This document shows positions 41,376 through 49,402 of a DNA stretch of 64,000 bases, one piece after another (position 1 is the stretch's first letter; each line of letters opens with the position of its first letter). The stretch is from Gemmataceae bacterium (GTDB lineage Bacteria; Planctomycetota; Planctomycetia; Gemmatales; Gemmataceae). The notes under the pieces were generated by a model. The model searched no databases and had not been told where the DNA came from. It worked only from the letters and a program-made list of their open reading frames with translations. Made by a program: the position numbers and the translations under genes. The stretch spans positions 1 to 64,000 of the forward strand of contig JAIEMG010000004.1 in assembly GCA_019752375.1 (NCBI GenBank). The letters are read 5' to 3'.

Positions 41376-41527
41376 GTTTTGAAGTTGCGCGTTACGAAAA
41401 CCCCAAGGAAAATCGCTGGCATCGTTAGCCGGACGCGCAAGCGACGGTGGAGCGTAAACCCTTCCGTCGCTTGCGCGTCCGGCTAACGACCCTGGAGCAT
41501 GTTTTTCCTGGCGCGCAACTTCAAAAC
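41376..41527. repeat. Nested inverted repeats (25-bp inner arms, 16-bp outer arms)
   Basis: The inner arms 41423-41447 and 41464-41488 are exact reverse complements around a 16-bp loop, with core GCCGGACGCGCAAGCGACGG. The outer arms 41376-41391 and 41512-41527 are also exact. Related GACGCGCAAGC arms occur at 48003-48055. It fills the space between the glycosyltransferase start and metallophosphoesterase stop. Confidence 0.85.
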
Positions 41528-45162: not shown

Positions 45163-45273
45163 GCGCCCGCTCGTGCGCCTGCTGAAGCGCGAGGCAGCCA
45201 GCCTCTGCGCTCACGCCATCTTTCGCGCATGAACGACACGTTTCAACCACTGTCATCGAACTGGAGAATCTTC

Positions 45274-45636
45274 ATGTACACGAACATTTTCGCCGGCCTG
45301 CTGCTGTCCCTGGGTCTGATGTTCGTCGGCGGCACGACTACGACCACCGCGGACGACAAGGCCGAGCCGGCCGACTGCTGCGTCAAGAAGCTGGCCTGCT
45401 GCGGCAAGGACAAGGCGTGCTGCGTGGCCACCAAGAAGCTCGGTTGCTGTGCCAAGGGGATGGACTGCTGCACCAAGAAGCTGGCCTGCTGCAGTGCCGT
45501 GCAGGAATGCTGCCGCACCGGCGAAGCGTGCTGCGCCCAGGCCAAGGCATGCTGCGGCCCCGCGGCCAAGACCACGACGAAGGAAAGCAAGGACTGCTGT
45601 TCGGCCGTGAAGGAGTGCTGCACCAGCGCCAAGTAG
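45274..45636 (+). CDS. Exported protein with tandem Cys-Cys repeats
   Basis: A 120-residue protein. A signal peptide (~1-28, ending TTADD-like) is followed by tandem short units each ending or starting with CC: DCCVKK, ACCGKD, ACCVAT, GCCAKG, DCCTKK, ACCSAV, ECCRTG, ACCAQA, ACCGPA, then DCCSAV and ECCTSA. The 22 cysteines are spaced about every 7-8 residues, with Lys between. This looks like a metallothionein-like or disulfide ladder protein; a copper, zinc or heavy-metal role is inferred, not shown. A strong terminator follows at 45651-45705. GGAGAA lies before the ATG. Confidence 0.72.
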   Translation: MYTNIFAGLLLSLGLMFVGGTTTTTADDKAEPADCCVKKLACCGKDKACCVATKKLGCCAKGMDCCTKKLACCSAVQECCRTGEACCAQAKACCGPAAKTTTKESKDCCSAVKECCTSAK

Positions 45637-47623: not shown

Positions 47624-47977
47624 TCAGCGGCCGAGCACCTGCTTGTAAGCCTCTTCGTTGAACCCCACGAGCAGTGTCTTTCCGTGCTTTAGCGTTGGAG
47701 CTTTCAGGTTTCCCGTCGGGCCAAGGATGTGTGCCAGCAGCGTCTCCTCGTCCGGCGGTTCGTGCTTCATGTCGAAGACGACGATCTTCTTGCCCTTCGA
47801 CGCGATCACCTTGTCCGCCGAACGCGCCAGTGCCAGCGCCTCGTCGCGGCCCTTGCGATGCTTGGTCGCGTCGGTCGTGTCGGCCACCTGCACGGCCTGC
47901 GTCTCAAGGAACCCCTGAGCCTTGACGCAGCTCATTCAGCCCTTGCGGTGGTACAGCCAGTCGATCTTGCCCGGCAT
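47624..47977 (-). CDS. Probable selenocysteine-containing ArsC-like (thioredoxin-fold) protein
   Basis: Read through an in-frame TGA at 47938-47936, this gives a 117-residue protein. Residues 1-13 (KIDWLYHRKG at 4-13) are the first strand of an ArsC/Spx-like fold. Codon 14 is TGA, followed by M-S-C17, so translation as Sec gives the redox motif U-x-x-C. The rest shows VKAQGFLE, RKGRDEALALA, KIVVFDMK and GNLKAPTLKHGKTLLVGFNEE, the family's C-terminal part with the cis-Pro-type APT step. AAGGGG precedes ATG 47977. A bulged hairpin at 47930-47897 lies at SECIS distance. A gene caller would start at ATG 47935, losing the first strand and half the motif. A nonsense mutation is the alternative. A role in thiol/arsenate-like redox chemistry is inferred. 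Confidence 0.75.
47897..47930 (-). promoter_or_regulatory. Candidate bacterial SECIS hairpin
   Basis: Five bases after the TGA the mRNA reads CUGCGUC, AAGG, a 10-nt loop CUCAGGGGUU, CCUU, a GA bulge, then GACGCAG. The 7-bp lower stem is perfect and the 4-bp upper stem is perfect; the loop begins 16 nt after the UGA and contains a run of G. Bacterial SECIS elements lie immediately downstream of UGA inside the coding sequence, with a G-containing apical loop bound by SelB, so the geometry fits. Confidence 0.65.
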
Positions 47978-48002
47978 ATTCGCCCCTTCTGAACGCGGCA
48001 AG

Positions 48003-48055
48003 GAGCCCGACGCGCAAGCAAGGGATACATCGACCCTTGCTTGCGCGTCGGGCTC
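48003..48055. repeat. Inverted repeat, 22-bp perfect arms, 9-nt loop
   Basis: The arms 48003-48024 and 48034-48055 are exact reverse complements, with core GACGCGCAAGCAAGGG. Fragments of the same arm flank the nested repeat at 41376-41527 (CCCTTGCTTGCGCG near 41363 and TTGCGCGTCGGGCTC near 41529). It separates the moeB-like gene from the ArsC-like gene. Confidence 0.85.
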
Positions 48056-48065
48056 GAGTCGTTGT

Positions 48066-49244
48066 TTAATACTTCGGCATACCTGGATCCACCCGATCCG
48101 CCCACGCCAGGATGCCGCCCTTGAGGTTCTTGAGCTTGGTGAAGCCTTGCTGCTTGAGAAATGCAATGGCCTTCTGGCTGCGCATGCCGCTCTTGCAGTG
48201 GACGATCATCTCGCGGGCCTTGTCCAGCTCGCCGAAGCGTTGCGGCAGTTCGGGTAACGGCAGCACCGTGCTGCCGGGGATGCGGCAAATCTGGATCTCC
48301 TCCGGATTGCGCACGTCGAGGATGAACAGGTCCTCGCCGCGGTCCAGGCGTCGCTTCAGGTCTTCGACGGTTGCCTCGCCGTCTGTCGCGGCGGCGGCTG
48401 GCTCTTCCTGGCCGCGCATGCCGCAGAACTGCTCGTAGTCGATCAGCTGCGCGATCGTCGGCTGGTCGCCACAGAGAGGGCACTTGGGATTACGGCGGAC
48501 CTTGAACTCGCGGAAGCTCATGGCCAGCGCGTCGTAGAGGATCAGACGGCCGATCAACGGCTCACCTTTGCCGAGGATCAGCTTCACCGCCTCGGTCGCT
48601 TGAATGCAGCCGATGAGGCCCGGAAGGATGCCGAGCACGCCGCCCTCGGCACAGCTTGGCACTTCGCCCGGCGGCGGCGGTTCCGGATAGAGGCAGCGGT
48701 AACAGGGGCCGTGCGGCGGATGGAAGACGGACGCCTGGCCATCGAAGCGGAAGATGCTTCCGTACACGTTCGGCTTCTTGAGTAGCACGCAGACGTCGTT
48801 GACGAGATAGCGCGTCGGGAAGTTGTCGGTGCCGTCAATCACGATGTCGTAGGGCTTGCAGATGTCGATCGCGTTGGCCGCGGTCAGCCGGGTGGAGTAC
48901 AGATCGACCTTCACCTCGGGATTGATCGCGTTGAGCCGATCCCGAGCGGATTCGAGCTTGGTCCGGCCGACGTCGGGCGTGCCGTGAATCACTTGCCGCT
49001 GCAAGTTGCTGAAATCGACGATATCGAAGTCCACCAGGCCCATGCGCCCAATGCCCGCCGCGGCCAGGTACAGGGCCAGCGGCGAGCCAAGGCCGCCGGC
49101 GCCGATGAGCAGAACGCTCGCGGCCTTGAGGCGCTTTTGCCCGTCCATGCCGACCTCGGGCATGATCAGGTGGCGGCTGTAGCGGGCGACTTCGTGCTGG
49201 GAAATGGTGATTCGATCGATCGGGAGATCAAGGTGCGCGGTCAT
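48066..49244 (-). CDS. moeB: MoeB/ThiF-type adenylyltransferase with C-terminal rhodanese domain
   Basis: A 392-residue E1-like enzyme that adenylates the C-terminal Gly of a sulfur-carrier protein (MoaD or ThiS type). The ATP loop is VLLIGAGGLGSPLALYLAAAGIG (~44-66); DFDIVDFSNLQRQ and an Arg-finger follow, then the FPTRYLVND block. Zinc-binding pairs are YRCLYP-type and CPLCG. Residues ~285-390 are a rhodanese domain with active-site CKSGMRS, which would supply persulfide sulfur, as in MoeBR/MOCS3-like fusions. The ATG at 49244 fits family length; the longer frame is rejected. Adjacent to the predicted redox selenoprotein, a possible sulfur-chemistry link. Confidence 0.92.
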   Translation of the reverse strand: MTAHLDLPIDRITISQHEVARYSRHLIMPEVGMDGQKRLKAASVLLIGAGGLGSPLALYLAAAGIGRMGLVDFDIVDFSNLQRQVIHGTPDVGRTKLESARDRLNAINPEVKVDLYSTRLTAANAIDICKPYDIVIDGTDNFPTRYLVNDVCVLLKKPNVYGSIFRFDGQASVFHPPHGPCYRCLYPEPPPPGEVPSCAEGGVLGILPGLIGCIQATEAVKLILGKGEPLIGRLILYDALAMSFREFKVRRNPKCPLCGDQPTIAQLIDYEQFCGMRGQEEPAAAATDGEATVEDLKRRLDRGEDLFILDVRNPEEIQICRIPGSTVLPLPELPQRFGELDKAREMIVHCKSGMRSQKAIAFLKQQGFTKLKNLKGGILAWADRVDPGMPKY

Positions 49245-49402
49245 GGTGCCGATTCCGAGTAAGAGTGGATTGCCTGTCGATATGATACGGCGCGCTTCAT
49301 GTGGTGGAACGGGGGTACTGGCGGCAGTGGTTGTCGGCAATCCGCATGATCGCATCGCAACGATATCGCACCAAGATTCACCGCGGCCCTGTGAATTCGC
49401 TG

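Follow-up and report, generated by a model that had tools for sequence, protein, structure and literature searches.

The window analysed here, the whole 64,000-nucleotide stretch of Gemmataceae bacterium DNA, carries on its minus strand a short gene that is crossed near its 5′ end by an in-frame TGA codon, with a conserved hairpin shortly downstream of that codon. The following features were assigned at this locus, all of them on the minus strand.

47624..47977, minus strand: predicted ArsC/Spx-like selenoprotein gene, family NF041106, 117 codons plus TGA stop, motif U-x-x-C with Sec as residue 14
47936..47938, minus strand: predicted Sec-UGA codon, residue 14, the first CxxC position and a TGA/Cys column in relatives
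47983..47988, minus strand: Shine-Dalgarno-like AAGGGG, 5 nt upstream of ATG 47977, read from the sequence
47903..47919, minus strand: bacterial SECIS apical hairpin CUCAGGG-GUU-CCUUGAG, 7 bp, supported by covariation, RNAalifold and a synonymous-recoding control
47897..47930, minus strand: extra lower stem CUGCGU/ACGCAG, SECIS positions 9-14 with 37-42, found in the minimum free energy (MFE) fold and peculiar to the window
48066..49355, minus strand: MoeB/ThiF-type adenylyltransferase with rhodanese (429 aa), upstream and codirectional, matching PRK07411 with 573 bits, under the cut-off of 633

The frame starts at ATG 47977, passes through the TGA at 47938-47936 and ends at the terminator TGA at 47626-47624. 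A preliminary description of this DNA had read the gene in just this way, with the UGA at the first residue of a C-x-x-C motif and an AAGGGG Shine-Dalgarno sequence before ATG 47977; the coordinates and the upstream site were confirmed, and the motif is U14-M-S-C17. The read-through product, MPGKIDWLYHRKG-U-MSC-VKAQGFLETQ..., has 117 aa. If the TGA is not read through, what is left is a 103-aa ORF from an ATG 3′ of the TGA, which has neither beta-strand 1, as the preliminary description had also implied, nor the residue of column 14. GGAG-type sites were found upstream of the equivalent start in many relatives.

The upstream moeB/rhodanese gene has a homologous counterpart in a cluster of 6 of the 47 loci examined, from several genera of the window's own family. 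Beyond it lie fabF, acpP, fabD and plsX, named from their translations alone, and a FabF-type gene was found near the family member in 5 loci of own family and order relatives. A neighbour conserved phylum-wide, which would give an operon logic, was not found. Between moeB and the selenoprotein gene, at 48003-48055, there is a near-perfect 22-bp inverted repeat with a 9-nt spacer. Its arm, GCCCGACGCGCAAGCAAGGG, occurs 182 times in the genome with up to 2 mismatches, often in facing pairs of equal spacing, while the reversed pattern occurs once; judging from these copies, the repeat is a member of a REP/MITE-like family. A degenerate copy with 3 mismatches per arm is located at 41428-41483. Elsewhere in the window, on the plus strand at 45229-45636, a small Cys-rich ORF shows repeated CC pairs (DCCVKKLACCGKDKACC...) and a hydrophobic N-terminal stretch.

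The read-through protein scored 138.6 bits with the NCBIfam model NF041106, 'ArsC family (seleno)protein', whose curated cut-off is 85. The match covered residues 5-111 and profile positions 1-107 of 107, thus lying on both sides of the TGA, and the protein has the U/C-x-x-C motif, so that both the full-profile score and the motif place it in the family; Spx and ArsC models gave much weaker matches. The preliminary description had suspected an ArsC-like selenoprotein of a perhaps known family, and NF041106 is indeed a named selenoprotein family.

We then compared the codon at the UGA column among family members, for which Cys or Sec in homologues had been proposed as a check. In a phylum set of 392 genomes, 80 had a member over the cut-off, giving 81 members, and the column was TGA in 70, Cys in 10 and Asp in 1. 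The Asp (SSDATC) belongs to a second family copy (L063) in a genome, G045, which also has a UGA copy. Apart from this copy, the column was Sec or Cys throughout, and the UGA of the window is thus aligned with Cys or Sec of its relatives. Among 59 close relatives, 42 genomes had a member over the cut-off; in the own family, the order and one same-class genome, 27 TGA and 11 Cys members were counted besides the window, using readable columns and omitting one contig-end sequence (L153). L153, from genome G427, has an intact SECIS-like hairpin, Ser at the Sec column and unrelated sequence 5′ of the hairpin, and is probably a misassembled contig end. Scanning contigs with a single sequence found no relatives, and an alignment-based scan gave 577; the best 80 of these, as named GTDB loci, had 71 TGA and 9 Cys codons at the column, and they partly overlap the genome set above, so their independence is incomplete. 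The best 80 are mostly Planctomycetota, such as Gemmata, Zavarzinella, Singulisphaera and Phycisphaerae; the other labels are Acidobacteriota, Tectomicrobia, Melainabacteria, Rokubacteria, Eisenbacteria, Wallbacteria, a Bacteroidota and a Proteobacteria MAG, although MAG labels may err, and by these labels the named loci fall into about ten phylum-level groups. The viral contigs searched held no relatives. Cys17 was invariant in both alignments, of 41 and of 50 sequences, and R11, C/U14, G62, G86, G89, L91, P94 and G105 were invariant in the 50-sequence set.

For the region downstream of the UGA we numbered positions from the T of TGA, so that position k corresponds to window coordinate 47939-k. 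RNAalifold, applied to 28 Sec sequences from the own family, order and class, returned a single hairpin in which positions 20-26 pair with 30-36 around a GUU loop; in the window its arms are 47919-47913 and 47909-47903, and the loop starts 23 nt past the UGA. In the same 28 sequences 93.4% of the cells were paired, and both sides changed in 4 of the 7 pairs. The covariation score was 0.350, compared to 0.193 ± 0.019 for shuffled alignments, with none of 500 shuffles as high, and shifting the partner arm by 1-3 columns lowered pairing to 30-65%. Covariation came mainly from pairs 21-35 (U-A, G-C, C-G) and 26-30 (G-C, A-U). A Phe codon has its wobble base at position 30, and position 26 tracks it (G-C in 18, A-U in 17, A-C in 3 and C-U in 1 of 39 sequences); since this is a wobble base, the protein sequence does not dictate the covariation.

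Synonymous recoding, with own and pooled codon usage and counting the better of two stem registers, gave the same picture. Sec members kept 5.27 of 7 pairs, where 4.32 ± 0.09 were expected and the highest of 1000 recoded runs reached 4.59, and 27 of 71 distinct Sec sequences were fully paired versus 3.4 expected, whereas Cys members showed no excess (3.73 pairs versus 3.65 ± 0.17). A hairpin with six or all seven of its pairs was present in 25 of 28 Sec members versus 1 of 11 Cys members in the window's own family, order and class, and in 68 of 71 TGA loci versus 0 of 9 Cys loci among the best 80 of the 577 relatives. Of four supported, phylogenetically independent pairs, a number too small for a test, none was contrary to an association of Sec with the hairpin.

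The preliminary description had also placed a SECIS hairpin downstream of the UGA. The element is present, conserved and covarying, but its stem and loop differ from those drawn. All the drawn bases are there: 5 nt past the TGA, a lower stem CUGCGUC/GACGCAG, an upper stem AAGG/CCUU, a GA bulge and a 10-nt loop. Across 28 relatives, however, this 11-bp structure with its 10-nt loop (positions 9-19 with 30-42) had 47.4% of its cells paired, equal to shuffled columns (48.3%), and what was drawn as the loop serves as the 5′ stem of the conserved hairpin. In the published bSECIS model the upper stem has 4-16 bp and the apical loop 3-9 nt, 16-37 nt from the UGA, with a G in the first two loop positions and the pattern N1-G-[G/U]-N-N2 (PMC13188914). 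The window hairpin agrees with it (7 bp, 3-nt loop, GGUUC as N1-G-U-N-N2, 23 nt), and the drawn version, with a 10-nt loop starting CU, fails the loop criteria. As to energy, the threshold is an MFE of -7.5 kcal/mol or lower; together with its lower stem the element (39 nt) reached -16.6 kcal/mol, and the bare 17-nt apical hairpin -7.2. The lower stem (9-14 with 37-42) has 6 of 6 pairs in the window and 0-4 of 6 in 38 relatives. Taken by itself, the window gave no significant folding energy (z -1.2 to -1.9), and Sec and Cys members could not be told apart by their MFE relative to synonymous recoding (mean z -1.54 for Sec, -1.21 for Cys). We therefore did not count energy as evidence for the SECIS, which is comparative only. 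An Rfam search at the locus gave chance or repeat-driven matches only.

Other lineages, including loci L027, L040, L059, L067, L083, L087, L091 and L094, show a second SECIS register, with stem 19-25/30-36 and an AGUU loop, and a third group, of DAFL type, shows neither register. About 40 distant Sec members, mostly of DAFL or DAFM type, are without the conserved register and presumably use another hairpin. Two registers together with a DAFL group that has neither suggest, at the level of sequence comparison, that the SECIS has shifted within the same gene.

Decoding of the UGA as Sec requires a host equipped for it, and the preliminary description had accordingly expected selA, selB, selC and selD. 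Three of the four were found in the window's own genome, a draft of 8.46 Mb in 391 contigs that is 92% complete: selB on contig C62 (378 bits, cut-off 242), selD on C273 (287 bits, cut-off 125) and, on C138, a tRNA-Sec gene (selC) with anticodon UCA (74.9 bits), with which ARAGORN agrees. SelD (L109:929-3466, G000 contig C273) follows a pyridine nucleotide-disulfide oxidoreductase domain in a fusion protein and has the Cys-type motif RCGGCGSK. Neither a profile search nor a same-family SelA query turned up a true selA in this incomplete draft; the best selA-profile match, 37 bits, was a DgaE-type SelA relative on C138. This DgaE/SelA-like PLP enzyme (L108:3791-4984, G000 contig C138) has 397 aa and a putative secretion signal; the tRNA-Sec gene lies about 2.4 kb away. 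Since 39 of 42 close relatives and 65 of 70 UGA genomes have a selA over the cut-off, the simplest reading of its absence is an assembly gap. There is a very slim chance that the organism is truly without canonical selA and that its Sec-tRNA(Sec) is made by the C138 enzyme, which would then be a non-canonical bacterial Sec synthase.

In the phylum set, selB was found in 68 of 70 UGA genomes versus 2 of 10 Cys-only genomes (Fisher p 7e-8, with shared ancestry ignored and 6 of the 10 Cys-only genomes belonging to one family). Within the window's own family, the nearly complete Cys genomes G401 and G403 have neither selA nor selB; both genes are retained in other Cys genomes, as is expected if these have other selenoproteins. 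In a tree of 120 members, built from few columns and with many unresolved forks, at least 12 changes between Sec and Cys were counted, of which well-supported branches require 4. The supported group to which the window belongs there has 10 Sec and 2 Cys members, and the window's nearest members, in the tree and among the best 80 of the 577 relatives, share 64-68% protein identity.

Two explanations without Sec were weighed against these data. The gene could be a decayed descendant of a Cys gene, or the TGA a sequencing error for TGC or TGT, with no Sec inserted; one base change turns either Cys codon into TGA, and the assembly is a draft without selA. We regard this as very improbable, since the TGA stands at the same column in 70 of the 81 phylum members and 71 of the best 80 named loci, relatives share the frame and the start, and the hairpin is kept at synonymous sites in TGA members only; on sequence comparison, the conserved TGA and hairpin already contradict it. 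Alternatively, the UGA could be read by near-cognate suppression, for instance as Trp, or through genome-wide UGA recoding. Nothing specific speaks for this, and it is hardly credible, because UGA also terminates the same gene, relatives have a redox-active Cys and not Trp at the column, and the genome has tRNA-Sec(UCA) and SelB. The gene almost certainly encodes a small redox protein of ArsC/Spx fold with a catalytic Sec14, its UGA being decoded via the intragenic hairpin.

An AlphaFold2 model from 50 family members (mean pLDDT 94.5) shows its elements in thioredoxin-type order; residue 14 falls immediately before helix 1 (15-26). Profile searches and Foldseek led to Spx, YffB and ArsC-related proteins (profile E 4e-10, Foldseek probability 1.0, TM about 0.54). 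Going by the model, the protein is most likely a selenol/thiol-disulfide oxidoreductase, or one acting on peroxide or an oxyanion. It is unlikely that Sec is inserted into a true arsenate reductase serving arsenic detoxification. The match to the ArsC-family Pfam model is barely at the cut-off (24.1 versus 24 bits), and Sec aligns with the well-established position of the ArsC nucleophile; on the other side, an invariant Cys closes the motif (UxxC), the nearest folds and profiles are Spx and uncharacterised ArsC-related proteins, and no ars genes were recognised adjacent in the window, where the gene has moeB/rhodanese and genes of fatty-acid synthesis beside it. From the U-x-x-C at the N-terminus of helix 1 and the lack of recognised ars genes nearby, we favour a dithiol-type (selenol-thiol) oxidoreductase over arsenate reductase. 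That the Sec protein is instead an Spx-like, redox-sensing regulator of RNA polymerase is quite unlikely. The nearest solved structures are those of Spx, CxxC/UxxC falls at the Spx redox switch and, in the alignment, an LRAP motif resembles the LRRP region of Spx; still, the Spx models are far under their cut-offs (PRK01655 23.6 versus 123 bits, TIGR01617 26.1 versus 75), and the TM-score is only 0.54 with an rmsd of about 7 Å.

In the explanation that we infer for Sec insertion itself, the redox chemistry and the substrate, the UGA at 47938-47936 would be decoded as Sec once the hairpin within the coding sequence, 16-33 nt past the UGA (7-bp stem, GUU loop), has recruited SelB:GTP:Sec-tRNA(Sec), and translation would then end at the second UGA. 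In the finished oxidoreductase, Sec14 would attack the substrate and Cys17 would resolve the selenenyl-sulfide.

A 2026 review (PMC13188914) gives NF041106 (ArsC_rel_Se_1) under the name 'Arsenate reductase-like protein, UxxC' and refers to the 2008 GOS survey, whose table has 'Arsenate reductase 2' as UxxC and ArsC 1 as UxxS (PMC2398784). The window gene resembles this family in its full-length match over the cut-off, UxxC, in-frame UGA, downstream bSECIS and alternation of Sec and Cys, and differs from it in nothing of substance. ArsC-like selenoproteins in Desulfotalea and Desulfuromonas (Zhang et al. 2006, PMC1794560) and GOS ArsC 1 share the ArsC fold and Sec at the first motif position, but ArsC 1, unlike the window gene, has UxxS. 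Spx/MgsR and YffB-type ArsC-related proteins (PDB 6gho, 3gfk, 1z3e, 1rw1) share the thioredoxin-type fold, CxxC at helix 1 and an LRxP motif, but have 21-25% identity, TM about 0.54 and no Sec, and the window gene is far below the Spx cut-offs. Selenoproteins and sel genes of planctomycetes were reported in 2016. The finding is correct and well supported, and it is not new in kind because ArsC-like UxxC selenoproteins have been catalogued since 2008; new here are one more Planctomycetota member and the SECIS covariation of the family. A covarying SECIS in two or more stem registers and some 12 switches between Sec and Cys make the family useful for building SECIS models. The main importance lies in annotation, as ORF calling that halts at the UGA yields a 103-aa protein without its catalytic residue.
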